Shown piece after piece: positions 1,965 to 43,364 of a DNA stretch of 44,700 nt. Each line of letters starts with the position of its first letter. The first letter of the stretch is position 1. Origin of the DNA: Thermoplasmata archaeon (lineage in GTDB: Archaea; Thermoplasmatota; Thermoplasmata; Methanomassiliicoccales; Methanomethylophilaceae); NCBI GenBank assembly GCA_015063165.1, contig SUSZ01000015.1:1-44700 (forward strand). The letters run 5' to 3'. The notes under the pieces are model-generated. The model searched no databases, was not told where the DNA came from, and saw nothing but the letters and a program-made list of their open reading frames with translations. A program made the position numbers and the translations under genes.

Positions 1965-4616
1965 ATGCGGCGTGTGAAGACCATAGACGAGATCTATTCG
2001 GAAGTATCGGACTGCTCTTTGGTGGTGACGAACGACGTCGCCCTCATGACCGCCCTCAACGCCAGGGTGGACAAGCCGATCATAGGCTCGTTCGCGGTGA
2101 CGCCGCAGCACATCGCCAGGATGCTGTCTTCCGAGATCCTCGGGAAGCAGGTCATGAGCGACATCGCCCTTGTGACAGCCATATGCGACGATACCGGCCT
2201 GGACTTCCGCATAGTCCACGGCGAGGTCATGAACATCCGCGAGATAAGGAGATACACCGCTGACGTCCGCAAATATCTGACCACGCGCTCCGCCAAGAAG
2301 GTCTACGACTCCTTCGAGAGCCTCCCTACGCTGGAGAGGGTGATGGCCTCTTTCGATGCCAGCACCAACGGATTCTTCCTGCATCAGCCGGGAGAGGTCG
2401 CTGTGGTCGGGGTGGACCTGTTCAACGACCTGGACAAGCACTTCATCCCTCTGGATTTCAGGGACGTCGACATCTTCGCGTACGGCGAGGAGTACACCAT
2501 CAAAGAGATCCGCCAGGTGGGAAACGACAGGCAGATAGCCGAGAACGTGGCAGACCTGATCACCAGGGAGAACGCCGACGACTGCGCCATAGTGCTGGAC
2601 GCCAGCGGCCAGATAGCCGATTCCATCAGGTCCGCCCTGTACGCCAACGGGATACCGTTCTACAACCGTCTGGACGTGAGAGACCTTGCGCAGATACGCG
2701 ACTATCTCCAGTTCGTCACCCTCGCATTATCCTACGAGACCCTCCGCGTGAAGAACGTCAAGGAGCTGTTCTCGAACTACAACGGGTTCTTCGTGAAAGG
2801 AGTAGAGAGCTACCTCCTGGGAAGGCTGGACCCTTCCGACATGAGGAGCAGGGCCGCGGAGCTCAGGGGCCTTATGAAGAACATCCGCGACATGACCTTC
2901 GGGGAGCTCAGGGACGCCCTCTGCGACAGGCGCGCCAGGATCCAGGTGGGGATAGTCATCATCGACCTCGGCATCAGGGACGAGAGAATCTCGTCGGATC
3001 TGGTGAGCAGGCTGAACTACGCCGTGGAGAACATATCCGACCTGCACCACAACGAGGAGGTCCCCATAGAGGAGAAGAGCGGTGTGCTTCTGGCGGACTG
3101 CAAGAACTCCGTCTTCGTGGACCGTCCTCTGGTCTTCTACGTGGAGATGGACCACAGCTGGGACGTCCAGGTCGCGGGGAAGAGGTACATCGACTCCGAG
3201 GACGAGACGGACAGGAACGTCAAGAAGCTGACCGCCCTGATACAGCAGGGGGAGGCCCGCGTCTACATAGTCAACAGCACCAAGAACGGGAAGCCGGCGC
3301 GCCCGGCTATGGCTTTCGATGATATCATCGGAAAGTCCACCCAGGGGTTCAAAGACATCTGCAGCAGTCTGGTGAACGGCAGATGGTTCAATCCCGGAAA
3401 AGAGGTGCGCACCGAGAGGGGCGAGGAATGCCTGGACGTTGCCGGAAGGATCGTCGGGAAGTTCTCCAAGTCGGCGTTCGACGCCTACTTCTGCTGCCCT
3501 CGCAAATACTTCTACAAGAAGCTGATAAACCTGCCGGATGAGACGCACACCGAGTTCGGAAACCTAGTGCACGAGTTCGCCCAGCTGTACATCTGCTATC
3601 CGGACGTCGTCCAGGAGGTTGGGTTCGAGAACCTCATCGACATCGTCTCGGACAGGTACGCCGGCCTCTCCACGCCTCTGATGACGAGGCTGGACCATGA
3701 CAGGATCGCATGCGCCATGCGCAACATAGCGAAGTACATAGACGCCAGGATTGACAAGGACGTACCGCTGGACCGCCCCTCGGACGAGGCTTATGGCAAC
3801 AGGTTCTTCGACCGCTACGGGCTCGAGTACTGGAGCAGCACCAGCGAGGTCGGGGTCAGCTCCCGCAAGCATCCGATGTACGGCAAGTTCGACGCCTTCT
3901 CCGACGGACTGGTCCTCGATTACAAGACCGGGAAGGCCCAGACAGGGAAGGACATCTGCAAGAAGATGGACACTGACAAGCCGGACAAGTACCCCGAGTT
4001 CCAGCCCATCCTGTACACTATCCTATCCAAGGAGACCGGAGGTAGGGGGGAGATGGAGCTGTTCTACGCCCTGGCGAACGACACCGACTCCCTGGACGAC
4101 TCCTACGACATAAACAACAGCGTACGTAGGGTACGCATCCTGGAAGAGAACCTGTCCGAAGCCATGAGGCAGGACGCCATCCTGGTGAAGAACCTGGTGA
4201 CAACGCTAGCGAAGGATTTCAAAGATAAGGTGCTGACGCTCCTGGAGGCCATCTCGCAGAGCTACGGGAACACCGTGCCCTCCAGATGGAAGGAGGACGA
4301 GGTCATCATCCAAGCGGTCCTGAAAGCCATGAACATGAAGGATGGCGATACGAACAGGAAAAAGGTGAAGGGCGCTATAGGAAAGGTCGCCAAGGAGCTG
4401 GCGGGATTCATGATCAGCGACGAGCGCGTCGTTGAGATCCCGCTGAATGCATGCAACGACTTCTAGGACATGCTGGAGAGGATGCACGATGATGCGGTGA
4501 GATACGCATGCACCAGCTATCCTGCCGAGCCCAGAGGGAACTGCAAGGACTGCGAGTACTTCCCGTTCTGCACCGCGGACATAGTCAAGATCGAAGAGGA
4601 GGATGATGAGGAATGA
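1965..4616 (+). CDS. addB: AddB-like PD-(D/E)XK nuclease with in-frame TAG (probable pyrrolysine readthrough)
   Basis: The frame from ATG 1965 meets TAG at 4464-4466 (codon 834) and continues for 49 more codons to TGA at 4614-4616. The C-terminal nuclease shows GNLVHEF near residue 535 and DYKTG with D652/K654. The 4Fe-4S cluster of AddB and Cas4 nucleases needs one Cys before the domain and C-x2-C-x5-C after it. Here the first is C511 (CCPRKYFY) and the last three are C860, C863 and C869, all beyond the TAG. The extended stop overlaps the next ATG as ATGA, a tight coupling that is lost if translation ends at the TAG. No helicase P-loop is seen in the N-terminal half, as in AddB. The partner is the helicase-nuclease at 4613. 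Protein size is 883 residues if the TAG is decoded. Readthrough is an inference from frame, motif and coupling. Confidence 0.8.
4464..4466 (+). other. In-frame amber codon inside the addB-like gene
   Basis: TAG is codon 834 of an 884-codon frame. It is the only amber codon found at the end of, or inside, a real gene in this window; the others use TGA or TAA. Methanomassiliicoccales are known to encode pyrrolysine and decode some TAG codons. The alternative is a shortened protein lacking the Fe-S cysteines. Confidence 0.7.
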
Positions 4617-7501
4617 GCGAGCTGAACGAGGCCCAGGCGAAGATAGCGCAGCACTCCGAAGGGCTGCTCGTAGTGGACGCCGGACCTGGAACGGGAAAGA
4701 CCCACACCATCGTCCAGCGCTACGTGAACATCATCTCCAAGCCGGACGTCAGGCCGGACGAGGTCATGCTTCTGACCTTCACGAACAACGCCGCAGACGA
4801 GATGGAGGAGCGCATAAAAGGGGAGCTGATGTCCATCGGCAAGTCCAGGATGAACAAGGACGTCAGGGCGATGACCTTCGACGCGTTCTGCCTCTCTGTC
4901 GTGATGGAATACGCAGAGGGCGTGAGCGACTTCTTCGGCTTCAAGGAGAGACTGTCGCGTTCGGCCAGGATGGAGACGAACGAGACCTTGAACAAGCAGT
5001 ACTTCGAGAGGTTCTTCGACGAGTTCAACAACAACCGCGGAGAGGACTACGGAGACTCCGCGGTGGTGCTCTCCCAGAAGTCGGACGACGTCATGGACCT
5101 GTTGTCCAAGCTGATGTCCAAGGGGATCATGCCGCTGAAGAGGGGCTGGTTCGGCATTGACGCCGAGAAGACCGTCAGGGGAGACCTTGTGGCCTTGAGG
5201 GAGGCGCTGACCGAGCTCAACCAGCCGGTCGCCAAGAAGACCAAGGTGACCGACTCCATGGCCAAGAGCATACTGGAGAAGATCAAACCCGAGCTCCGCG
5301 AGAGCGACTTCCCGGACACGTCCATCATGCAGATATCCGAGGAGGACCTGGATTCCGCCGCGATGGAGGACAGGGAGGAGCTCATCGGATACATCCACGA
5401 CATCTATCTGGCCTTCATCCGCAGGAGCATCATGGACAACCGCCTCACCTTCGGCCTCAACGCCATGTTCGCCTTCGTCCTCCTGTACAGCGACGAGAAG
5501 GCCAGGAACGAGAACAAGTTCAGGTACCTGATGATCGACGAGTTCCAGGACACGAACGCCAACCAGCTGATGATCTGCCTGATGATCCTCTCCGAGCCCA
5601 ACCTGTGCGTGGTCGGAGACTGGAAGCAGGGGATATACGGGTTCAGGTACGTCTCCACCGAGAACATCACCGACTTCGAGAAGAGGACCGTGATGTTCAG
5701 AAGGTTCCTCAACGACGACATCATGAGGGTCCGCTTCAGCCTACCCGAGACCACCAGGATCCCGCTGAGCATCAATTACCGCTCGTCGCAGACGGTCATC
5801 GACCATTCGTTCCACTGCCTCGAGCTCAAAGGCACGGAGGATGACGAGATCGACAGAGCCTACCTGGACAAGAACGTGGTCAAGCTCGCCCAGGGAAGAA
5901 CTGACATTGGAGAGGGCGACACCGAGGTCAGGTTCGTTAAAACCGCCCCGGCGGACGAGACCAAGGACGTCATCAGATGCATCAACGAATACCTCTGGTC
6001 CGGGAACTACGAGGTCGTGAAGGGAGAGACGCGCAGGCCTGTCAGAAGGAAGGACATCGCCGTCATATGCAGGTCCGTCAGGTGCTGCCGCATGGTCTAC
6101 GAGGCCGCCGTTGCCGCGAAGATACCCGCCTACCTCCAGGGGGACATACAGGTCATGTCCACCAGAGAGGGAAAGCTGACACTGGCCTGGATACGCTACG
6201 TGAACAACGAGCGCGACGAGAGCGGATACGCCACCATCATGGCCGATATGGGCTGTCCCCTGACAGCCATCAAGCGGGTCAAGGAAAACTATGCCGAGAA
6301 CATCCCGCCGGAGATCGACGCCCAGCGCAAGGAGCTCTACAGGAAGAGGCGCAGGGTCACCGACCTTCTCACGCACCTGTTCTCGTTCTACAACCTGGAC
6401 AACGACATCACCCATGCGATCGTGACCATCCTGTCGCAGGCGCACCGCAGCTCCCTGATGACCCTGTCGGACCTGGCGATGCTCATAGACGAGGACATCC
6501 GCAACGGAACCTCCTACCCGGTGGAGGGGGACATCAACAGCGACGCCGTCACCATCATGACCATGCACAAGTCCAAGGGTCTGGAGTACCCGGTGGTCAT
6601 CATCCCGTACATAGACACGTCCATCATGCCGCCTGTGGTGAGGAGCAGCAGCGAGCTCCTGTACGACGACCTTTACGGCATCAGATGCGTCGGATCCGTC
6701 GGAAGGTTCGGCGGATACTCCAAGATATGCAAATCATGGAGGACGGCGCTGGTGAATGGGGTCCTGAAGAAGGACTACAGCGAGGAGAGGCGCCTGATGT
6801 TCGTGGCGATGTCGCGCGCCAAGCAATACGTCACCGTCATATCCGGACGCCCTTCGTCCTTCATGAAGGGCATGCTCAACGGAGAGGGGTCCAGCATAAA
6901 GGATGTCACGATCCCGCCTGAGGCCAGCATGCAGCCGGTGGCGGACAAGCCCGAGGTCACTGGATACAAGCCCAGAAGGAAGAAGCTGGGGGTCCACGAA
7001 ATCCTCCACCTCAACACTGGGGACGGATGGGAGGCCTCCGAGGACTGCGACGAGTTCTGCAGCAAAGGGATGCAGTACGGAATTGACGTGCACGAAGACG
7101 CCGAAAGGATGTTCATGGGGCTCCCGCTCCAGAGGGACCTCCCCGAGCACGCCGAGATAAAGAAAGTGCTGGACGACACCTCCGGAGCCGATCTCAGATA
7201 CGCGGAGAGGGAGTGCGGCCTTCCGTTCAACGACCTCGACGTCACCCTGAGAGGGGTCATCGACCTGATAGCCGTGTATCCGGACAGGATCGAGATCCAC
7301 GACTACAAGACGGACGAGGTGGACCGCTTCGAGGAGGAGTACAAGATTCAGCTGTCGGTGTACGCCTACTCCGCATCCGGCTTCTACGGCGGCAGGAGAG
7401 CCGAATGCTTCATCGACTACGTCTCGCAAGGACGCTCAGTGAGGTTCGACCCGGTGCCTTTGGACAGGATAAGAGAGAGAATCCTCGAAAGGATAGGGTG
7501 A
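4613..7501 (+). CDS. addA: AddA/RecB-like UvrD-family helicase-nuclease
   Basis: A 962-residue superfamily 1A helicase with a C-terminal PD-(D/E)XK nuclease. Visible motifs: Walker A GPGTGKT (residues 24-30), motif Ia LLTFTNNAADEM, Walker B MIDEFQDTNANQ, motif III VVGDWKQGIYGFR, motif V TIMTMHKSKGLEYP and motif VI EERRLMFVAMSRAKQY. The nuclease residues are D884 (GVIDLI) and D897-Y-K899 with a following QLSVYAY helix. AddAB complexes unwind and resect DNA double-strand ends. Its ATG lies within the ATGA that ends the readthrough form of the addB-like gene, so the two are probably translationally coupled. AddAB is mainly bacterial, so transfer from bacteria is plausible. Ends in TGA. Confidence 0.85.
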   Translation: MSELNEAQAKIAQHSEGLLVVDAGPGTGKTHTIVQRYVNIISKPDVRPDEVMLLTFTNNAADEMEERIKGELMSIGKSRMNKDVRAMTFDAFCLSVVMEYAEGVSDFFGFKERLSRSARMETNETLNKQYFERFFDEFNNNRGEDYGDSAVVLSQKSDDVMDLLSKLMSKGIMPLKRGWFGIDAEKTVRGDLVALREALTELNQPVAKKTKVTDSMAKSILEKIKPELRESDFPDTSIMQISEEDLDSAAMEDREELIGYIHDIYLAFIRRSIMDNRLTFGLNAMFAFVLLYSDEKARNENKFRYLMIDEFQDTNANQLMICLMILSEPNLCVVGDWKQGIYGFRYVSTENITDFEKRTVMFRRFLNDDIMRVRFSLPETTRIPLSINYRSSQTVIDHSFHCLELKGTEDDEIDRAYLDKNVVKLAQGRTDIGEGDTEVRFVKTAPADETKDVIRCINEYLWSGNYEVVKGETRRPVRRKDIAVICRSVRCCRMVYEAAVAAKIPAYLQGDIQVMSTREGKLTLAWIRYVNNERDESGYATIMADMGCPLTAIKRVKENYAENIPPEIDAQRKELYRKRRRVTDLLTHLFSFYNLDNDITHAIVTILSQAHRSSLMTLSDLAMLIDEDIRNGTSYPVEGDINSDAVTIMTMHKSKGLEYPVVIIPYIDTSIMPPVVRSSSELLYDDLYGIRCVGSVGRFGGYSKICKSWRTALVNGVLKKDYSEERRLMFVAMSRAKQYVTVISGRPSSFMKGMLNGEGSSIKDVTIPPEASMQPVADKPEVTGYKPRRKKLGVHEILHLNTGDGWEASEDCDEFCSKGMQYGIDVHEDAERMFMGLPLQRDLPEHAEIKKVLDDTSGADLRYAERECGLPFNDLDVTLRGVIDLIAVYPDRIEIHDYKTDEVDRFEEEYKIQLSVYAYSASGFYGGRRAECFIDYVSQGRSVRFDPVPLDRIRERILERIG

Positions 7502-13919: not shown

Positions 13920-16900
13920 TCAGCGGTCCGTCAGGTCCTCGAGCCTTCCCTCGATATCCGTCGCGATGGCGTCCAGCTTCTCCTTCATGTCGTCGTCGGC
14001 GTCCCATAATCCCCTATAGACCGCTTCCTCCAGACGGTCCAGCATGTTCATCATGGCGTAGGGGTTCTCCTTCATCACCCATTCTCTCGTGGCCTCGTCC
14101 AGGACGAACCTGTTGGCCAGGGACTCGTACATCCATCCGTCTATGACGCCGGATGTCGCGCTCCATCCCATGACGTAGTCGAAGAGCTGGGAGATGTCCT
14201 GCGCTCCCCTGAAACCATGCCTCTTGAGGCCTTCCAGCCATTTGGGGTTGTTCACCTTGCTGCGGAACACGAAGGCGCATTCCTCGTGGAGCGTCCTGGA
14301 CTTGAGATTCTCCGTGTCCGACGAGTCTCCCATGAAAGCCTCGGCATCTCCCCCTGACGCCTTCACTGCGGCAAGCATCCCGCCCAGGAAGTCGTAGTCG
14401 TCGTCCATGTCGAACAGGTCGTTCTCCCTGTTGTTATGGTTCTTCACAGCCACATCGAGGGATCCCATCCTCTTCCTGAACTGGGAGGGCATGGCCTGTC
14501 CGTCGTAGCCTTTGCCGTAACCGTAGCATCCGTGGTCGATGTAGGATTCTCCGAGATCGTTCACAGTCTTCCACTGGCCGTTGGTGATCAGGGTGTTCAC
14601 CCCGCATCCGTAGCGTCCGGGAGCATCTCCGAACACCCTTATCTGGGCGTCCCTCCTGGCTTGGTCCTCAGGGATTCCGGAAAGGACAGCTTCCAGCACA
14701 TCCTTCCTGAGATTCGCTGCAAGAGCGTTGTCCTCGTCCGACTCCTCCAATGTGGAGATGGTCTTCACGCCTTCATCGATCAGGTATACCAGATTGGGGA
14801 ACGCGTCGCGGAACAGCCCGCTTATCCTCAGCGTTACGTCTACCCTGGGACGTCCCAGCTCGGACAGAGGGACCGCCTCGAGGCCGACGACCCTGCCTCC
14901 GAACTCCGTCCAGACAGGACGAAGGCCCATCAGCCAGAGCACATAGGAGATGTCGTCTCCGCCCGTCCTCATGGTGTCGGTGGCCCATACGACCACTCCG
15001 ACCGATCTCGGATATGCCCCGTTGGACTCCACGTACCTCTCGATCATCTGGTCGGCCATCTTACAGCCTATCTCCCAGCTGGAGGTCCAAGGGATCCCGT
15101 CCGGGTCTATGGAATAGAAGTTGCGTCCGGTCGGGAGCACTCTGGCTCTTCCGCGGGTGGGGCATCCAGACGGTCCAGGCTCCACATACCCTCCGTCCAG
15201 AGCCTTCAGGACGCTGGTTATCTCGTCGCCCGTTCTGCCTATCGCAGGGATCAAGAAACTCTTGATGAAATCCACCACGGGGACGGTGCGCTGGCCCGGA
15301 AGGACCACGTCCTGGCCGTCGGCGATGCATCCGATGATTCTGCGGCATTCGGCATCGACCTCGTCCACCAGATCTCCGTTCAGACGGCCTTCTGTGGTTC
15401 CCGAGGGGTCATGAAGAAGGCTCTGGAAGTCCAGCCCCATATCCTCGGCAACTGCGCTTCTCATAGACGGGACGTCGCCGTTGGAGTTCCTGACCATGCT
15501 GTAGACGGACTCCTTGAGGAGGTCCCCTTCCGGAGCCTTGCCCAGGATATGAAGTCCGTCAGCTATGAGGGCGTCCTTCACCTCGACGACGTAGTCGTAG
15601 ATGTCGTCGACCCTCTCGGCCACGCCTTCGACCATGTCCGGTAGGTCCAGATCCGAACCCATATCCATGGCTTGGACTATCTCGAAGATCTTCTCCTCGG
15701 CCTTCCTGACGCTCTCCTCCATGTTGGTAGCCTTGGCGCGGAGCCTCAGCTGGATGGCCGATTCCAGTTCGGAGATCTCGTCATAGGTCTCCGCCCTGGT
15801 CATGGCAGGCACCATATGGGTGACGACAGCGGCATATCCCCTGCGCTTGGCCTGCATCCCCTCTCCGGGGTTGTCGATGATGTACGGATAGATGTCCGGA
15901 AGAGAGTCCAGCGTGGCGTCCGGGAAGCAGTCTCTGGACAGTCCGACACTCTTTCCCGGGAGCCATTCCTGAGTCCCGTGGGTTCCCACGTGGATGACGG
16001 CATCTGCTCCGAATTTGTGCTTGAGCCATCTGTAGAAGGCCAGGTACTGATGGGGCGGAGCGAGCTCGGGGTCGTGGTAGGCGGAGGCGTCGCACTTTCC
16101 ACGGTCGGGCTGGAACCCCACGAATATGTTGCCGTTTATCAGCCCCGGTATCAGCATGTCGCCGTCTATGACGTGCACGTTCCCGGGAGGCTCGCCCCAT
16201 CCCTCTTTCAAGGCCCCTGAGATGGCCTCTGGCGCTTCCGAGAGCCACCCCTGGTAGTCGGATGCCTTTATCCTCTCCGAGGCCCTGCGGCGTATCTCCT
16301 GGTCCGAGAGCCATGAGTTGTCGTTGGTTATCCCTTCCAGGAGCCTGTCCGCGAGCTCCCTCCCGTCGTTTGGGACCCAGTCCAGGGTATAGCCCGCGGA
16401 GGCCATCGACTGCAGGAGGCTGGCCACGCTCTCCATGGTGTCCAGGCCTGAGGCTCCTCCTGCTAGGTCGTTCCTCGGAGGGTACATGTACAGGAGTATG
16501 GCCGCCTTCTTCTCGGACTCCGGCTTCCTCCTCAGATTGGCCCACATGTATGCCATATCGGCCACCATGCGGCATCTGTCCTCTAGGGGGATGTACCTGC
16601 GACGGCCGTCGTCCATGACCTCGTATCCTGCGATAGGCACCGTGATCAGCTGTCCGTCGTACTCGGGTGAGACCACCGCTCCGGCTATCTCCGAGCCGGT
16701 GAGCCCGTATACGCTGTCCTTCCACTTCTTGGAGGTGCCGTACAGATGGATCGCCTGTATCACCGGCACGCCCAGCCTGGCGAACATGTCGTCGTCGCAG
16801 GACTGCTCGAACGCGTCCGCCCTCGGTCTCAGCGTCTGGGAGAAGCCCATCGTCTGGACGACGCAGTCCACCAGCGGCTTCCCGTCCTTTAACAGAAATC

Positions 16901-17606
16901 TGTCGATCAGGGCGCCTATGCCCATGGAGTTCACGGCGTCGTCCGGATAGGTCATGGTGAAGATACCTATCGCATCTGCGCCGCGGTCGCGGAGGGCTTT
17001 CAGCATGCCGTCCACGCCCCCACAGTTCTTGGACACCCAGAACCTCTGGTGGAAGATGACGCAGATGCGCGGGCGATCCTGCCTCATGGAAGCGACCGCC
17101 TCGTCTATCTCCAGATAGCTCTCCTCCAGAGTGTATGCGCCCTGCGCCGGCAATAGCAACGGCTCCGGAATCTCCACGTCCACGCCGTCGCATGTCTTGA
17201 GAGCCCATAGCAAAAGGGACCTGTAGTTCTCGTCCCCTCCAGAAGCCATGAACCTGGTTATCAATTCGAAGTCCTCGTCCGATCCTAGGAAAAGACTCCT
17301 ATGCTCGTCGGTGACGCGGACCTCGCTGTCGCACATCAGATAGGTGTTGATCCTGCTGGATTCCACCGTCTTCTCGAAGGCGGCGAACCTCTTGAAGTAG
17401 GTCACGTCGCCGTGAACCCTCATGAACACGATGTCGCTGTGGCGGACCTCGTCCAGGATCCTCTCGTTGAACAAGATGTCCGAGTCCATGTCGCAGGAGT
17501 CGGCTCCCACGATCTCCACGTTGTAACCCTCTTCCCTGAGGCCTCTGGCAGCGTCGTCCATGACATGCCCGTGATTGGCTCCTACCGAGATGCAGACGGC
17601 TCTCAT
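13920..17606 (-). CDS. cobN: CobN/ChlH-type chelatase large subunit, paralogue A
   Basis: A 1228-residue protein of the CobN/BchH family, of full family length. The core holds the conserved block VIHVGTHGTQEWLPGK, then [17 protein letters not shown], and a C-terminal region with LPTGRNFYSIDP, VVWATDTMRTGGDDISYVLWLMG and [18 protein letters not shown]. The family binds the tetrapyrrole and inserts Mg2+ or Co2+ with help of ChlI/ChlD-type AAA+ partners, which are encoded divergently at 21439-24350. The start is preceded by GGAGGATGAA. The neighbouring paralogue lies 41 nt upstream on the same strand, so the two are probably one transcript. Metal and substrate are not determined by sequence; cobalt insertion is the usual annotation. 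Confidence 0.88.
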   Translation of the reverse strand: MRAVCISVGANHGHVMDDAARGLREEGYNVEIVGADSCDMDSDILFNERILDEVRHSDIVFMRVHGDVTYFKRFAAFEKTVESSRINTYLMCDSEVRVTDEHRSLFLGSDEDFELITRFMASGGDENYRSLLLWALKTCDGVDVEIPEPLLLPAQGAYTLEESYLEIDEAVASMRQDRPRICVIFHQRFWVSKNCGGVDGMLKALRDRGADAIGIFTMTYPDDAVNSMGIGALIDRFLLKDGKPLVDCVVQTMGFSQTLRPRADAFEQSCDDDMFARLGVPVIQAIHLYGTSKKWKDSVYGLTGSEIAGAVVSPEYDGQLITVPIAGYEVMDDGRRRYIPLEDRCRMVADMAYMWANLRRKPESEKKAAILLYMYPPRNDLAGGASGLDTMESVASLLQSMASAGYTLDWVPNDGRELADRLLEGITNDNSWLSDQEIRRRASERIKASDYQGWLSEAPEAISGALKEGWGEPPGNVHVIDGDMLIPGLINGNIFVGFQPDRGKCDASAYHDPELAPPHQYLAFYRWLKHKFGADAVIHVGTHGTQEWLPGKSVGLSRDCFPDATLDSLPDIYPYIIDNPGEGMQAKRRGYAAVVTHMVPAMTRAETYDEISELESAIQLRLRAKATNMEESVRKAEEKIFEIVQAMDMGSDLDLPDMVEGVAERVDDIYDYVVEVKDALIADGLHILGKAPEGDLLKESVYSMVRNSNGDVPSMRSAVAEDMGLDFQSLLHDPSGTTEGRLNGDLVDEVDAECRRIIGCIADGQDVVLPGQRTVPVVDFIKSFLIPAIGRTGDEITSVLKALDGGYVEPGPSGCPTRGRARVLPTGRNFYSIDPDGIPWTSSWEIGCKMADQMIERYVESNGAYPRSVGVVVWATDTMRTGGDDISYVLWLMGLRPVWTEFGGRVVGLEAVPLSELGRPRVDVTLRISGLFRDAFPNLVYLIDEGVKTISTLEESDEDNALAANLRKDVLEAVLSGIPEDQARRDAQIRVFGDAPGRYGCGVNTLITNGQWKTVNDLGESYIDHGCYGYGKGYDGQAMPSQFRKRMGSLDVAVKNHNNRENDLFDMDDDYDFLGGMLAAVKASGGDAEAFMGDSSDTENLKSRTLHEECAFVFRSKVNNPKWLEGLKRHGFRGAQDISQLFDYVMGWSATSGVIDGWMYESLANRFVLDEATREWVMKENPYAMMNMLDRLEEAVYRGLWDADDDMKEKLDAIATDIEGRLEDLTDR

Positions 17607-17647
17607 TTCATCCTCCTATTATGTGTTAATACCTTTAATCATTACCA

Positions 17648-20600
17648 TCAGGGACGGTCGGTGAGGTCCTCCAGCTTCTCCTCTGCCTCGTTCCAGAGCT
17701 CTTCCAGCTTGCGCCTCATGTCGTCGTCGGCCTCCCACATCCCGCGGGATATGGCCTCGTCCAGACGGTCCAGGATCTCCGCCGCGGCGTAGGGGTTCTC
17801 GCGCTCCATCCAGTCCCAGGTATCCTTGTCCAGCAGATATTTCTCAGCGATGCCGTCGTACATCCACTTGTCCATGACGTCCGAGGTCGCATCCATTCCG
17901 AAGGCGTGCTCGATGACGTTCACCATCTCGGCCGCTCCGCGGTATCCGTGCCTCTTCATCCCTTCGATGTACTTCGGGTTGAGGAGCTTGCTGCGGAAGA
18001 CGAACTTCATCTCCTCCTCCAGGCTCCTCAGCTTGGTCTTGTTCGGATCGGAGCCGTCGCCCATATAGGACACGGCATCGGCGTCCCCGTAGGCCTTGAC
18101 GAAGGCGTTCATCCCTCCAAGATACCCGTAGACGTCGTCTATGTCCAGCAGGTCGATCTCCCTGTCCGGCATGTTCTTGACCGTAGCCGACACCTTGGAG
18201 AACCTCCTTACGAACTCGTCCTTCATCGACACCCCGGAGAAGCCTCTCCCGTAAGCGTAGCTGCCCCAGGCGACGTAGGAGTCCGCCAGGTCCTTCACGG
18301 TCTTCCAGTTGCTGGATTCTATCAGATGGTTCACTCCGGGACCGTAGGCTCCCGGCGGGCATCCGAAAATCCTCACGGACGAGCGCTTGCGGGCCTCGTC
18401 GTCGGGGATTCCTTCCCTTATGCGCTCCGCCAGGTCCTTCCTGAGATTCGCAGCCAGAGCGTTGTCCTCGTCCGACTCGTCGAGGGCCATGACCATCCTC
18501 GCGGCGTCGTCCAGAAGGTCAATCAGGTTGGAGAACGCGTCCCTGAACAGGCCTGTTATGCGAACCGTCACGTCGACCCTGGGACGGCCCAGCTCCTCCA
18601 GCGGGACGACCTCCAGGCCCGTGACGGTAGGTCCGTCCGGCGACCATACCGGCCTCACTCCCATCAGCCAGAGGATGTACGCGACGTCGTCTCCGCCGCT
18701 CTTGAAAGTGTCGGTGGCCCAGATGATGAATCCGATCTCCCTGGGGAATCCGCCCTTGTCCTCTATGTGGCGCTCGATCATCTGGTCTGCCATGCTCTTC
18801 CCGACCTCCCATGCCGAGCGTGTCGGGACAGTGTCCGGATCCAGACCGTAATAGTTCCTTCCTGTGGGCAGTATGTGGACCCCTCCACGGGTGGGGGCGC
18901 CGGAAGGCCCGGGCAGAACGTAACCGCCTGCGAGCGCGTCCAAGGCGGATCCGATCTCCCCTGCCGTCCCTTCCAGAGCAGGATAGACCCTATCGCAGAC
19001 GAACCTGACGGCCTTCAGAAGCCCTTCCGTGCTCCCGGGGACCATCTCCCTGCATGCCTTCTCCGCCTCGTCCCTGTCGAATCCCAGGGTGCGTATGCGT
19101 TCGATGAGCTCGAACGTCCTCGCATCAACCTCGTCTAGGTCGTCCTCCGACGTCTTCCCCATCGATTCTGCCACGGCGTCCCTCAGAGACGGTACGTCAC
19201 CGTTAGCCAGCCTGGTAAGCGAATAGACGGATTCGGTCATCAGCTCGCCCTCGGGCACGCGGCCGAGGATGTGCAGCCCGTCCCTGATCAGGGCGTCCTT
19301 CGCCTCGGTGACCAGGTCGTGCAGCTTCCAGATGTTCTCCCTGAGGTCGTCTATGCTGGACTCGGGGGTCAGACCGATGTCCTCCAGCAGGTTTTCCTCC
19401 GCGGCTGCTTCCAGAATCTCCCTCAGAACGGCGTCCTTTCTGGGCGCGGTGCCTGCTCCCATAGCCACGAGCTCCTGGATGAGCGAATCGATCCTCATGA
19501 GCCCGTCGTGGAGGCCGGCGCGGGTCATCACGGCGTTCAGATGCCCTATCAGGACGGCTTCCGAGCGCCTCTTGGCCTGCATGCCCTCCCCGGGATCGTC
19601 GATCATGTACGGGTAGATGTTCGGGATGGAATCCAGGACAACGTCCGGATAGCACTTGCCAGACAGCATCGAGGTCCTTCCGGGCAGCCATTCGAGGGTG
19701 CCATGGGTGCCCATATGGATCACGGCGTCGACACCGAAAGACCTGTCCAGCCATCTGTAGAAGGCCAGATACTGGTGGTGAGGGGGCAGCACCGGATCAT
19801 GGACGAGCTCGTCAGCGCCCTCGCCCCATCCTCTGGGCGGCTGCAGGGTGACGATCACGTTCCCTGAGACGAATCCGGGCACTATCATCCTGTTCTTAGC
19901 GGATGCGATATATCCGGGGGCGTCTCCCCAGCGCTCCCTGATCTGCCCCTTGTTGAATTCGGGAACCTTGTCGAACCACTCCGAATACTCTTCGGCCGAT
20001 ATGGCGGCTGGTGCCTTCTCCACTATCTGGGAATCGGTCCAGTTGCCGAAATCGTATGTGACCCCCGACAGAATCCTCTCCATGAGGGCCTTGGAATCGT
20101 CGGGAACGTCCCCTAGCGTGTATCCGGCGTCCCTCATGGCCTTCATTAGCTCCACCGTGCTCGCAGGAGCGTCCAGAGGTCCTGCGTTCCCTATGCGCTC
20201 GGAGCCGGGGCTCACCTGATACATGATTATGGCGACCTTCCTCTCCGAGGGCTTCTTGCGTCCCAGCCTGGCCCATCCTGCGGCCAGCTTGCAGACATGC
20301 TCCACCCTGTCCGGGATAGGCTCGGCCCGCTTCATCTTGCTCTTGTTCTCTGCGTAGGGGACGCCTATGATCTGGCCGTCGAGCTCGGGCCAGCACACCA
20401 TCGCTTTCAGGTCGCCCTTCACAGGCCCGTCGGCGGATTCCTCGTAGTCGGGGAGCCTTCCGGAGTAGGACATGACCTGTATCGCCGGAACTCCCAGCAC
20501 CGTCTTGAAGAAGTTCAGCTCGGGCGGGACATCAGCCGTCCCGGTTATCGAGATCAGCTGCGAGAACGGAGAGCAGACCAGAAGGACGTCGATGATCGTC

Positions 20601-21331
20601 CTCCCGTCCTTCTTGAAGTACTGCTCCGCGATCTCCGAGGAATGCCTGTTCTCCGAGGAGGATCCGGCGGAAGGGGTGTAGAACACGGGTATGACGTCCA
20701 AGCCGTTCTTCTCGAGGCGCTCTATCAGGAAGTCCACGTGCTGCATGTTCCCGTACAGCCAGAGGTTCGAAGGGAACATGATACCCACGACGGCGCGGTC
20801 TCCCTTCAGCGAATCGAGATAATCCTCCTCGGTGACGTCTATCGGGAACCCGCTGTGGTATATGCCGTCTGACCTGTTGACGATAGGCTCGGGAACGTCC
20901 GCTCCTGTCCCTCCCAGCATCCTGTAAGCGTAGAGGAGCAGGCCCTTGTCGTTGTCCCTCCCCTTCATGTCCGCGTATAGACACAGCTGGAGGAAGTCCT
21001 CGTCCTCTCCCACGAACAGGTCCTTGTACAGGAGACGGACCTCGGGGTTCTTGGAATGGAACAGCACCCTGCCGGTGCATTCCCTCAGGACCTTCTCGTA
21101 GTCCTCGAACCTGCGGAACTTGTACGGGTCCGCCATGCATCTGATGAGGATGAAGTCCGCCTTCAGGCTCTCCTCCACAAGCTCGCGGTAAACCAGAGGG
21201 TCGGATTCCACCACGTCGTGGTTGTATCCGAAGACCGTGAGGTCTATGCCCTGCTCTAAGCGGATCTCTTCCGCCAGCTCAGGAAAAACGGTCGCATCCA
21301 TGGATTGGATAGAAAGGCAAACGAACCTCAA
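17648..21331 (-). CDS. cobN: CobN/ChlH-type chelatase large subunit, paralogue B
   Basis: About 1227 residues, paralogous to the gene at 13920 over its whole length. Core blocks are [68 protein letters not shown] and [19 protein letters not shown] chose TTG at 21331 as start because it gives an N-terminus (MRFVCLSI) matching paralogue A (MRAVCISV) and sits 9 nt after GAGGGGA. A GTG at 21340 is the alternative, but its spacing to that site is too short. First gene of the minus-strand chelatase transcript, with a bidirectional promoter shared with the ChlI-type gene. Two adjacent large subunits with one ChlI/ChlD set suggest two substrates or metals, or a two-headed complex. Confidence 0.87.
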
Positions 21332-21390
21332 CGGCAGCACTCCCCTCTCGCAGTCAGACGTCCCATGTTATCGAGGGTCCATGCGTTTGG

Positions 21391-21438: not shown

Positions 21439-22467
21439 GTGAGTCGCGTTTCCACTGTGTTCCCATTCGTCGATATCGTAGGTCAGGAAGAGATGAAGAG
21501 GGCCTTGATTCTCAATGTCATAGACCCGGGAATCGGGGGCGTCCTGCTCAAAGGAGAGAAAGGAACCGCCAAATCCACCTCTGTGAGGTCCCTGGGCGGA
21601 GTCCTTCCCATGAGGAAGTCCGTGAAGGGCTGCAGGTTCCATTGCGATCCTCGCGACCCGGATTCCATGTGCGAATCCTGCAAGAGCCTACTGAACGGAC
21701 CCGGATTCGAGACCGAGGAGGTCCCCATGGAGGTCGTCGAGCTTCCTCTGGGAGCCACCGAGGACAGGGTCGCCGGCACGATCGACATCGAGCACGCCCT
21801 GAAGACCGGAGAGAAGAGGTTCGAGCCAGGAGTCCTCGCCAACGCCAACGGGAACCTGCTCTACATAGACGAGGTGAACCTCCTCGACGACCACATCGTG
21901 GACATGCTTCTCGATTCCGCCGCGATGGGAGTCAACTACGTCGAGAGGGAAGGCATCTCGTTCTCACACCCCTCCAGATTCGTTCTCGTAGGAACCATGA
22001 ACCCCGAGGAAGGGGACCTCAGGCCCCAGCTTCTGGACAGGTTCGGACTGTCGGTGGACATCAAAGGCGAACACGACCCCAAGACAAGGGCCGAGATCGT
22101 CAGGAGGAGGCTGGCTTACGACGACGCGCCTGAGAAGTATGTTGAATCCCGCTCCGAAGAGACGGAGAAGCTCCGCTCCCGCATCGTGGATGCCAAGTCC
22201 CGCGTGCGCTCGATCGCCATCGGCCCGGAGGTCCTGGACGCGGTGGTCACGATAACATCGCATTTCGGCATAGACGGGCACAGGGCGGACATCGTCATGA
22301 TAAAAGCGGCCAGAGCCAACGCCGCCTTCGAAGGAAGGGACCGCATCATCTCGGACGACATAGTGGCCGTAGCAGGGCTCGTCCTCTCCCACCGCATGAG
22401 AAGGCGCCCGTTCGAGGACTCTTCCATCGACCGCGAGGAGCTCGAGAAATGCCTGAAGGACATCTAA
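21439..22467 (+). CDS. chlI: ChlI/BchI-type AAA+ chelatase subunit
   Basis: A 342-residue AAA+ ATPase starting at GTG after GGAGGA (21428-21433). Walker A is GEKGTAKST (residues 39-47), Walker [11 protein letters not shown] and the sensor region [21 protein letters not shown]. Four cysteines (C65, C69, C78, C81) form the CxxxC...CxxC insertion often seen in ChlI/BchI-type proteins. It should form the ATP-driven motor ring that acts with the ChlD-type protein on the CobN-type subunits. The next gene overlaps by 19 nt in another frame. Ends in TAA. Confidence 0.9.
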
Positions 22468-24350
22468 GCTACCCTTTCTCCGCCGTCTACGGCATGGAGG
22501 CGGCCAAGAACGCGATAAGATGCGCCATCTGCAGCCCCGGGATCCGCACCGTTCTCATAAGAGGGCCCTCCGGTTCGGCCAAGACGGTGCTCTGCAGGTC
22601 GCTCGACGGCCTCTCCGGGAAGAGATCGGTCAACATACCCTCCGGAGCCGACATCGACAGACTGTTCGGTTCCGTGGACATGGAGAGCCTCCTTGACACA
22701 GGCGAAGCCCGCCTGGAAAAAGGCCTCATCGCCGAAGCGGACGGAGGATACACTTTCGTAGACGACATCAACCTGATGGACGAACGTCTGTCCGTCTCTT
22801 TGCTCGACGCCGTCACCTCAGGAACCGTCCGCACCGAGCGCGACGGCATATCGAACGTATCGGCTGTCAATGTTGTCCTCGTGGCCACCATGAACCCCGA
22901 GGAGCGCGAGATGAGCGACCATCTGCTGGACCGCTTCGACATCTGCGTGAGCGTCGCTCCGGACGACGAGACGGAAGCCAGGAAGGAGATCGTCGCCCGC
23001 CGCATAGCATACGAGGACTCCCCCAAGAATTTCAACCAATCCTACGAAGAGGAGCAGGAGAAGGAGCGCAAGGCCATCGACGACGCCAGGAAGATCATAC
23101 CGCTGGTGAGCATCTCGGACGAACTCCGCCTCATCATCGCCGAACTCTGCGACAAGGTAGGCGCAGAAGGCATACGCGGGGATATAGCTGTCACCAACAC
23201 CGCGATAGCGTTGGCGGCCCTCGACAGGCGCGATTCCGTCACCAGGAGCGACGTGGAACGCGCCGCGGCCATGTGCTTGGTACATAGACGCCGCTACGAC
23301 CCCGAGCCCCCTCAGGAGCCTCCTGAGCCCGAGGAGGAGGATCCTCCGGAAGACCAGGAGCAGGAGCAGAGCGAGGACCAGGATCAGGACCAGAAGCCAC
23401 CTGAGAACAACGATGACGATCAGAAGGATGAGGAGCCTCCCGAAGAGGACGACAAGGACCAGGACAAAGGCATAGACCTGCCTCGCATAGACGACATGAT
23501 GTTCGAGGTCGGACGCCAGTTCAGGGTGATAGACTATCTCGGAAAGGGGAAGACCTCCGTCAAGCCGAACAGCAGCCGCAAGGGACGCCGTTCGGAGTTC
23601 GAATGCACAGGGACTTCCGGGAGGCAGGTCTCCGCCAGGATCCCTGAAGGCAAGACCCGCGACATCGCCTTCGCAGCCACAATGAGGGCCGCCGCCCTGT
23701 CTCAGAGAGGAAGGGAGCCCGGCTCCATGCGCATTATCGTCGAGGACAGCGACATCAGGGAGAAGATCAGGAGGGCCCGCACAGGATGCACCGTGATGTT
23801 CCTGGTGGACGCCAGCGGCTCCATAGGAGCCAGGAGGAGGATGTCCGCAGTCAAGGGGGCCGTCCTCTCGATGCTCAAGGACAGCTACGTCAAGCGCGAC
23901 AAGGTCGGCCTGATGGTGTTCAGAAGGAGGACGGCGGAAGTCATCCTGCCGCCCACCCGTTCCGTCGAGTACGGATACAAGCTCCTAGAGGACATCCCCA
24001 CAGGAGGAAGGACGCCTCTCGCCGCCGCGATGATAACCGCCAGCGACTACATGACCTCCTATTCCAGATCCCACCCGGGCGAGAGGTGCTACATCGTCCT
24101 GATGACCGACGGCAGGTCCAACGTCCCTTACATCGAAGGGAAGGACCCCAACCAGGAGGTGAAGGACCTGGCGGAGACCCTTGACGTCCCCGGGATCCAG
24201 TGGATCGTGGTGAACACAGGGAACGGATTCAGATTCTTCGACAGCGCCTCCGAGCTGGCATCCCACCTGGGTGCGCTATACTTCAACCTCGAAGAGCTGG
24301 ATGCCGATGCTCTCGCCACGAACGTGCGCGCAGCCGCCAACCTGGGATGA
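22449..24350 (+). CDS. chlD: ChlD/BchD-type AAA+ and VWA chelatase subunit
   Basis: A 633-residue protein: an AAA+ domain (about 1-260) with P-loop GPSGSAKT (39-46) and [11 protein letters not shown]; a long Pro/Glu/Asp/Gln-rich linker (about 280-345); and a C-terminal von Willebrand A domain with a complete MIDAS DASGS (454-458) and LMTDGRSN. The ChlD type bridges the ChlI-type ring and the large subunit through the VWA domain. The P-loop here looks intact, whereas many ChlD proteins have degraded ones. Overlaps the chlI-type gene by 19 nt, so translation is coupled. Ends in TGA. Confidence 0.9.
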
Positions 24351-39769: not shown

Positions 39770-41017
39770 TCAGAAGCGATTGATCACTCTCTCGAGAATG
39801 TACAGGGTGCCGACAGCTCCGAAAAGAGGCTGTGGGAGGAACTCCACGTTCATCATCGAGGGGAACCTAAGATCCACCCCGCGAAGGCAGTGATTGGACC
39901 TGGCATACATGTCGGCGGTGTTCCCGTCCGTGCACAGGATCTCCGTATACTCGGGAACGTCAGCATCCAAGGCATCAACCCATCCAATTCTCTCCAGGAA
40001 CTCTCCCATGAGTTCCTCCGAAGGCTCGTACGAGATGCCGTTGTACCTCAGGCACTTGGGAACCATCTGAAGGTTGTCGTAGAAGAACTTGGCAAGCGGG
40101 TAGCAGATCGACGGCTCCGCGTCTATAGAGAAAGAGAACGCGTCGGTGTCGAACCTTGCCGCCATCATGCGACGGTAGGCCTTCTTGCGTATCCTATCGA
40201 CATACTCCAGAGCCTTGGATGGGTCGTTACCGGTCCTCTCTGCGACCAGCTTGATCCACCTGTCGGTGTACTCGAACCCCACAGGGGAGCACTCCGGGAT
40301 AATGGTGGACATGCCGTACCTCTCGTGGTAGTAGTCGGCTGTCCTCAGGGCGTACTCCGGGCACACGGCGATGGCGTACTCCGCATCCACCGAGTCGCGG
40401 ATCTCCTGAACGGAGGAACCTGCTCCGAGGCAGCATATGACCTCTATCCCCATGAGCTCCAGGATGTGCGACATCTCCTCGTTCACGGATTCCCAATCCT
40501 TCTGCAGGACATGGTTCCCCAGGAGAACGGCCGTGTTCTTCCTGACGCCCTTAGCAGGCTGATTAAGCTTCTCCAGTACCCTCATGAGGGTGAGGTCTAT
40601 CCCCACGTTGATGGGCTTGGAGCTCAGGTCTGCGTCCAGAACTATAGCCCTGTCGCTAAGGCCGGTCTCCTCAATCGCCTTATTGCAGTCATCTCCGATG
40701 AGCGACGCTCCTGGAGAGCAGACGACCGCCACGAATCTGGTATCGCGCTCTTTTATGTACTGGAGAGCATCGAACACGCGGTCGTATGCGCCGTAGATGT
40801 AGTCGCTGGACTCCAGGTCGGTGCAGGGTATCCTGGCGCTTCCCCTGTAGTAGGGCGTCATCCTGCTGACCGACTTGTCCTTGCGAGGGTACACCTTGTT
40901 CGTAAGGGCCCAAAGGTTCTTCCTACATCCTTCGGGTCCATGCATGAGAACTGTGGAGTCCTTGATGCCTTCGATGGCCATCGTGACTCCGAAGAATCCG
41001 TCCGGTTTCACTATCAT
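39770..41017 (-). CDS. Nitrogenase component-1-like protein (NifK/NifE type)
   Basis: A 415-residue oxidoreductase-nitrogenase component 1 protein. The N-terminus is short. C31 in MHGPEGC corresponds to the second P-cluster Cys of NifK and C100 in VVCSPGASLIGDD to the third. The position of the first, 25 residues before C31, is Asp6. C65 lies in IPCTDLESSDYIYGA, the NifK-like block before the third Cys. It pairs most naturally with the NifD-type half of the upstream fusion. Spacing to that gene is 1 nt (TGA-C-ATG), with an AGGAGG site inside its end, so stoichiometric synthesis is likely. Length is below nitrogenase subunits (about 450-520) and near that of dark-operative protochlorophyllide reductase or NifE-type proteins. 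Ends in TGA. Confidence 0.85.
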   Translation of the reverse strand: MIVKPDGFFGVTMAIEGIKDSTVLMHGPEGCRKNLWALTNKVYPRKDKSVSRMTPYYRGSARIPCTDLESSDYIYGAYDRVFDALQYIKERDTRFVAVVCSPGASLIGDDCNKAIEETGLSDRAIVLDADLSSKPINVGIDLTLMRVLEKLNQPAKGVRKNTAVLLGNHVLQKDWESVNEEMSHILELMGIEVICCLGAGSSVQEIRDSVDAEYAIAVCPEYALRTADYYHERYGMSTIIPECSPVGFEYTDRWIKLVAERTGNDPSKALEYVDRIRKKAYRRMMAARFDTDAFSFSIDAEPSICYPLAKFFYDNLQMVPKCLRYNGISYEPSEELMGEFLERIGWVDALDADVPEYTEILCTDGNTADMYARSNHCLRGVDLRFPSMMNVEFLPQPLFGAVGTLYILERVINRF

Positions 41018-41018
41018 G

Positions 41019-43364
41019 TCAGTGGCCTCCTGTCATGGATTTGATCATCTGGAGCATGTCTGGAGGGACCCCCTCAGGCATCTTGCCCTCCTTCATCTGG
41101 TTGAGGGCAGCCTCCATCTTAAGAGGCATGTGGCCTCCCATCATCGCCTTGATGGCTTCGATCTGCTGCTGGGTGATCTTCACAGGCTCGGCCTTGCCCG
41201 TCTCCGGCTTCGATTCTTCCTCGCCCTCCCAGCTCCTCCATCCCATCGTAGGGGCGCTGGTCATCATCGTATGCATGTAGTCCAGATACTCGATCGAAGC
41301 GTAATGGGTGAAGCACTGGTAGTCGCGGCTGAACTCCTTGAACTGCTGCCCGTGCCATCCTATCATTACCCCGCCTATGACCATGTCTGGGTTGCTCTCC
41401 TGGACAGCCATCTTTATCTCCAAGGGGTTGGACATCTCGCGCACGTTGAGCCTGTCCTTGTAGCGAGACTCGAAATCTGGGCTGGGTCCGCTCCCTCCTC
41501 CGATCCTCATCCTGAAGACGTAATAATTCCTGATCTGGACGCCCGCATCGATAAGTACCTCGATCATCCAGTCGTCGTCTCCCAGGATCCCCGAGATTAT
41601 ATCCGCGGTCTTCCCCTCGAAGAACGGCCTGTGCCTCTCGAGGGCCTCCGCATACTGCTGCTTGATCTTTTCAGAAACGGCCTGAGAACGTTCCTCGATG
41701 CCGTACTCCTTTCCGACCTTCTCCACCCATGCCAGGGTGTCCGAGTACCCCTTCGGGAGGGGTTCGGAGAAGATCTTCATGCCCTTCTTCTCGGCCATGG
41801 CGTCGGCCATTCCGTTCACGGTAGGGTCGTCAAAGGTTCTGACGTTCAGAATGTTCTTCTTGCAGCCGACGACCTCGTCCAGGAACACGTTGTCTATGAT
41901 CTTGTGAACCTTGGAGAAACCGAGGTCCTTGAGCAGCCTGTTGGTCCATTCGCTGTTCCTTCCTGAAGAATACACGATGAAATTGTCGTCGATCAGGTTG
42001 CATTCCATGTCGACAGGCTCGCGAGCCTCGTCGATGAAGTCGATTATAGCCTGCATGGCCATAAGACGGCCCTCTTCGGATCCCCCGGTGAGGTTCCCAT
42101 CGGCCTTCACGACCACGAGATTGAGCCCGGGGTACTCCTCCTCGGCCTTCTTCTTGATGAGGTCCAGGTTGTCCCCTATCATTCCAGGGACGCAGGTGGT
42201 GATTACCATGATGGTCCTCTTTCCCTTGTTGGCTTCAGCGCGGATTATGCGCATGAGGTCCTCATGCCCTCCGAAGATGGATGAGTCGTTGCTCATGCGT
42301 GTGGACTGGATGTTGTTCCTCAGGATACCGACGGTGCTGGGATTCGTTCCCATCTCGGTGAGGAAATGGACGTCCTGCGTGTGGGACATGACATAGCCAC
42401 AGCTCGCAGGCCCGTGGATGATGATCGGGAGGTCGTTGACCCTTCCTGCAGCGAATACCGCTCCACGGCTCGCGCAGGAACCCGTTCCCCTACGGACCTT
42501 GTTGCAGTGGCAGGCTTCTCGCTTGAAGTTGCCCAGAACGGTTATGGCCTTGCCAGCGGCCAGATCGTTGAGCTGGGCGTCGCTGAGAGGATGAGGGTCG
42601 TAAAGCTTCCTTACGCCGGTGCTGATCGCTATGACGTCGTTAGCCAGCTGCCCATAGATGGAGGCGGGAACAGAATCGGGGAAAGCTTCGGAAACGGTCT
42701 TCCCGAGCCGCTCAGCCTCGATGAACTCATCGGAACGGGGGATGTCGACCACTATAGGGAGACCCACCCCGTCAGAGAACCTCTCCACGATCTCGCGTTC
42801 ATTCTCAACATTCCTCCTGTTCAGAATGATCCCGGCTACCCTAGGACGGGCGGAGCCGAAATTGAGCAGCCCGCGGAGTATGTTATTGGCCGCATAGATG
42901 GCCATGAACTCCCCTGACGTGACGATGTAGACGGCATCGGCGTATTCGTTCCTCATAGGGACCGCGAAACCGCCGCACACGACGTCTCCGAGAACGTCGT
43001 AAAGTGTGATGTCCTTATCGATCTCGTTGATTCCCATCTTCTCGATGGTGTCGAAGGTCGTGAGAATCCCTCTTCCAGCACATCCTATGCCGGGTTCAGG
43101 GCCTCCAGCCTCGATACACATGACACCGCCGGAACCTTCGAGCATGATGTCTTCGAGCTTCCTCTGTGACGGAGGAGTGCTTCTGATGTAATCCAGAACC
43201 GTCGTCTGCTCCTTGCCGTTGATAAGATACTTGGTGGAATCGTGCTTGGGATCGCATCCCACCTGAAGCACCTTCACCCCTTTTTTCGCCAGGGTGAACG
43301 AGAGGTTCGAAGACGTCGTGGATTTGCCGATACCGCCTTTACCGTATACTGCGACTTGCAACAT
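41019..43364 (-). CDS. NifH-NifD fusion: nitrogenase-like reductase
   Basis: A 781-residue single chain. Residues 1-255 are a NifH/BchL/CfbC-type ATPase: P-loop GKGGIGKST (8-16), switch GCDPKHDST (36-44) and the cluster cysteines C95 ([12 protein letters not shown]) and C130 (GDVVCGG). After a short linker, residues 275-700 are NifD-like: C297, C322 (HGPASCGY) and C391 ([11 protein letters not shown]) match the three P-cluster cysteines in spacing. The region of the FeMo-cofactor Cys reads YSSGRNSEW without Cys. A Met-rich tail (720-781) has two IK(A/S)M(M/T)GGH motifs. NifH and component 1 are normally separate, docking transiently. The reading frame is continuous with no stop or shift. It cannot be the ordinary F430 enzyme pair CfbC/CfbD, where the subunits are separate and there is no NifK-type partner. 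TATA AATATTTAAAT lies 22-32 nt before ATG. Confidence 0.9.

Follow-up and report, generated by a model that had tools for sequence, protein, structure and literature searches.

Does the TAG that separates an AddB-like nuclease gene from the cysteines of its presumed iron-sulfur cluster end translation, or is it read as an amino acid? The question is raised by a contig of a Thermoplasmata archaeon of the family Methanomethylophilaceae (GenBank assembly GCA_015063165.1, contig SUSZ01000015.1), of which we analyzed the stretch from position 1 to 44,700, hereafter the window. A first-pass annotation made from the letters alone had proposed amber readthrough, most simply with pyrrolysine (Pyl), in a DNA repair protein rather than in a methylamine methyltransferase.

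Results

The frame begins at an ATG at position 1965 on the forward strand (frame +1) and runs for 833 codons to a TAG at 4464–4466 (codon 834), beyond which it continues for another 49 codons (4467–4613, +) and closes at a TGA at 4614–4616. Read through, the gene (1965–4616, +) would encode 883 residues, with residue 834 predicted to be Pyl and placed within a predicted helix spanning residues 827–850. The tail carries C860, C863 and C869, and together with C511 (3495–3497, +), the presumed fourth ligand, these form the pattern C...C-x2-C-x5-C; D652-Y653-K654 (3918–3926, +) reads as the presumed PD-(D/E)XK catalytic motif. The extended stop overlaps the ATG of an addA-like helicase-nuclease gene (4613–7501, +) as ATGA at 4613–4616. 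All of these positions agreed with the first-pass annotation, and codon-usage gene calling bore out its further claim that no other gene in the window ends in TAG: the sole called frame ending in TAG was 1965–4466, the other 29 ended in TGA or TAA, and one of the 29 was the tail alone (4470–4616). The addB frame read through the TAG was otherwise free of lesions across its 2,649 bases, and no RNA structure 3′ of the TAG, PYLIS-like or other, rose above background (z −0.98).

Elsewhere in the window, two tandem CobN/magnesium-chelatase large-subunit genes (13920–21340, −) are adjoined by a ChlI/ChlD-like AAA+VWA gene (22449–24350). The segment at 39770–43364 (−) holds a 781-residue fusion of a NifH-like part (residues 3–270) and a nitrogenase-component-1-like part (residues 297–669), followed by a second nitrogenase-component-1-like gene; these genes may serve coenzyme F430 synthesis.

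We assessed the identity of the read-through protein by profile and by fold. Pfam PDDEXK_1 matched residues 500–717 (34.2 bits, cut-off 22), placing a PD-(D/E)XK nuclease domain in the C-terminal part, and the NCBIfam cas4 model touched residues 807–870 at 23 bits, under its cut-off of 65. The NCBIfam addB and rexB models gave no match at E 0.001, nor did PDB chains searched by sequence profile at E 0.1, and we therefore call the protein AddB-like, a distant relative. A structure predicted from 11 sequences (mean pLDDT 77.7, pTM 0.48; the cysteine region at low confidence, pLDDT about 51) had AddB chains of AddAB as its top five PDB fold matches (E 3e-14 to 6e-13, TM 0.33–0.37 by query). The addA neighbor was matched by the addA_Gpos (141.9 bits, under its cut-off of 707.65), recB (145.7 bits) and UvrD-helicase (157.8 bits) models.

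Bacillus subtilis AddB resembles the protein in fold (matches 4ceh_B, 3u44_B and 3u4q_B), in being paired with AddA, and in having a nuclease at its C-terminus that bears a four-cysteine staple (PMC3466216), but it is longer, at about 1150 residues versus 883, and only 10–11% identical. Cas4 and Csa1 nucleases likewise combine one upstream cysteine with three C-terminal ones (PMC3466216); they differ in being short, stand-alone nucleases, and the match here fell below the cas4 cut-off. AddB and Cas4 both bind an iron-sulfur cluster through these four cysteines, and the staple is described as essential for the structural integrity of AddB (PMC3466216). By analogy, a product of 833 residues would probably lack stability.

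Next, we looked for the means of decoding TAG, as the first-pass annotation had suggested, and found them on another contig of the same genome (C34). ARAGORN detected a tRNA-Pyl with the anticodon CUA, and profile searches identified PylS (TIGR02367, 255.3 bits, cut-off 178.15) and PylD (203.7 bits, cut-off 150.05); between pylS and pylD lie PylB- and PylC-like frames, named by reading and without a model match. The PylS N-terminal domain was absent from this genome and from seven of seven genomes checked; a shortened PylS has been described for this order (PMC3941956). An Rfam scan of the pyl region returned no match at the gathering score. TAG interrupts two copies of mtmB and one of mttB in the genome, and the full Pfam models span the TAG once it is read as a residue. 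A nitroreductase-family gene near the pyl genes (L004:8452-8961 (-), G000:C34) also has a TAG, at codon 81, with Pfam matches on either side.

To place the addB codon in its genomic setting, we counted stops across 661,014 bases (29% of the genome) with genes called by codon usage. Among 487 called stops, TGA accounted for 404, TAA for 55 and TAG for 28 (5.7%), whereas base composition alone would predict TAG as ~37% of stop triplets. Coding character continued past 17 of the 28 TAGs, compared with 59/404 for TGA and 3/55 for TAA (Fisher p about 1e-7), and under a stricter score for coding extension past 14/28 versus 22/459 for the other stops. Among the 17 are this addB, the three methyltransferase genes and a gene that enters the count twice, once for each of its two TAGs. 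For the remaining 11, no extension scored as coding above the limit, and three of them reach the next stop within 9 codons. A Pyl-lacking control genome (G117) tempers both measures: TAG made up only 30 of its 311 stops, so that a low share of TAG is not in itself diagnostic, and 8 of those 30 TAG frames ran on by the same score, so that part of the 17/28 is background. The contrast in run-on between the two genomes is real but moderate (p 0.009).

Six of the 16 other read-through proteins had no match in a Pfam scan. In one gene, codon 267 is an in-frame TAG that falls inside a protein kinase domain (residues 33–285; L056:7155-8522 (-), G000:C11). A 997-codon frame contains two in-frame TAGs with coding sequence on either side of each and no Pfam match (L062:4984-7974 (-), G000:C17).

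We then searched the read-through protein against 147 genomes of the order and obtained matches in 98. The alignment comprised 35 distinct sequences (10 named loci, the 30 best unnamed and one more, less six duplicates), two of which stop before the tail where the available sequence ends. At column 834 the other orthologues have sense codons, mostly for leucine or methionine (L 16, M 9, V 2, one each of H, I, Y, R and S, and two gaps). In G092, the nearest relative (77% identical), the codon is CAC, for histidine, and the tail is the same. Of the 98 genomes, five had an in-frame TAG in addB, and no two of them shared a column (172, 349, 718, 798 and 834). By column entropy these sites rank between the 58th and 95th percentiles and so are variable, the pattern expected if TAG had drifted into ordinary positions. 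In addA, at least five copies in at least four genomes carried in-frame TAGs, among 114 genomes with a match. PylS exceeded its cut-off in eight of the nine TAG-bearing addA/addB genomes among the matches listed; the ninth (G084, an assembly 82% complete) gave a match to PylD but none to PylS above the cut-off. PylS is so common in the order (91 of 147 genomes over the cut-off) that this co-occurrence is weak evidence taken alone. One relative has a second addBA copy (G073:C1:713406-719035), the addA of which carries two in-frame TAGs.

The position of the break, directly before the cluster cysteines, raises a special case of Pyl decoding, in which the TAG would act as a regulated switch that yields full-length Fe-S AddB only when Pyl is plentiful. 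Double-strand-break repair would then be gated by Pyl supply, with clusterless AddB at low supply and the complete enzyme at high supply; if Pyl supply tracks methylamine use, as we infer, such gating would couple the repair capacity of this species to its methylamine metabolism. The TAG is, however, conserved in no aligned orthologue, the other addA/addB TAGs lie at unrelated positions, and TAG is present in many unrelated genes of the genome. We thus regard both the switch and the gating of repair as highly improbable.

If instead the TAG were a true stop, the 833-residue protein would work without an Fe-S staple, or the tail would be a relic. The body (residues 1–833) does contain the PD-(D/E)XK domain, and certain other TAGs in the genome do seem to be terminators. 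The orthologues point the other way. None of those aligned stops at the position of the TAG, and all three tail cysteines are kept in 33 of the 33 orthologues that reach the region, as is C511 in 35 of 35, so that the four-cysteine pattern is invariant in the alignment; the cluster that it would hold is presumed. In genera that gave no PylS match above the cut-off (g5, g11, g12 and the greater part of g10), an addB ending at this point would have counted against readthrough; full-length addB matches there reach query residues 870–882. Compared with G092, the tail is identical at 35 of 49 residues and the body at 643 of 833, and dN/dS is 0.176/0.703 (~0.25) for the tail and 0.153/0.746 (~0.21) for the body, values that average both lineages since their split, whatever the age of the TAG. 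On these comparisons the tail is under purifying selection and evolves like the body. The gene junction gives the same indication: the end of addB overlaps the start of addA in 32 of 33 readable junctions (seven in the 4-base ATGA form, the window included), whereas termination at 4466 would leave a gap of 146 bases to addA. A true stop is therefore very hard to credit. A search of phages for AddB gave no match.

An assembly or sequencing error could also have created the TAG from a sense codon, given that the sequence comes from a single assembly of 67 contigs. Random errors would yield TGA and TAA as well, yet TAG accounts for almost every internal stop in the full-length addA/addB relatives (five addB matches and at least five addA matches carry it). 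The exceptions were one addB match with two TGAs and one TAA, in a genome with no PylS over the cut-off (G109), and, for internal TGA among the listed addA matches, one short helicase fragment. This bias toward TAG speaks against error, which we consider just as implausible as a true stop. Least probable of all is a recent nonsense mutation in an addB on its way to becoming a pseudogene: the absence of the TAG from the 77%-identical relative means that it may be young, but there is no second lesion, dN/dS is low on either side of the TAG, the downstream addA is intact, and orthologues bearing TAGs at other sites are otherwise intact.

Discussion

Taken together, codon 834 of this addB is almost certainly read as pyrrolysine and not as a stop, a conclusion drawn from coding sequence, conservation and the pyl genes. 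The gene is best understood as an archaeal addB, part of an addBA operon in a gut-type methanogen of the Candidatus Methanomethylophilaceae. This archaeon would make pyrrolysine and a tRNA-Pyl with a CUA anticodon, and TAG 4464–4466 would be decoded as Pyl; the ribosome would continue for 49 codons, adding the three C-terminal cysteines of the putative iron-sulfur staple, and translation would end at the TGA lying across the start of addA. The likeliest origin of the TAG is drift at a helix position that tolerates change, since the lineage has largely abandoned TAG as a stop. We consider this account as a whole, a Pyl-read TAG in the addBA operon, a tail with Fe-S cysteines and an origin by drift, to be very probable.

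The original proposal of Pyl readthrough in a repair protein is thus supported, although the site is not the singular case that it appeared to be: the genome overall makes little use of TAG for termination and has numerous internal TAGs, and the addA and addB genes of relatives carry theirs at different sites. The codon is one of the many TAGs that would be read as Pyl in this genome, here probably near-neutral in effect and with no special role as a repair switch. The scatter of TAGs over addA and addB suggests drift into ordinary genes once TAG no longer serves as a terminator. Kivenson et al. (Science, 2025) have reportedly described an archaeal "Pyl code", in which TAG means Pyl genome-wide in related archaea, with proteomic support.

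The closest published parallel to our case is Candidatus Methanomethylophilus alvus, which belongs to the same order and likewise has pyl genes and rare TAG stops, TAG accounting for 1.6% of its stops (Borrel et al. 2014, PMC4153887). Sixteen of its non-methyltransferase genes are described as having an in-frame TAG, including that of the DNA-acting nuclease Cas1, and half of the candidates have TAG-free homologues in relatives (PMC4153887). AddB is not named in Table 7 of that paper (PMC4153887). No paper on Pyl in AddB was found, judged by title or the opening of the abstract, in the literature searched, which covered few subscription journals.

The Pyl codon in addB is accordingly a real but expected case of an altered code that these archaea are already known to use. 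With it, the predicted pyrrolysine proteins gain an enzyme of DNA repair. Standard annotation of these archaea will shorten such genes, and in this one the Fe-S ligands are lost.
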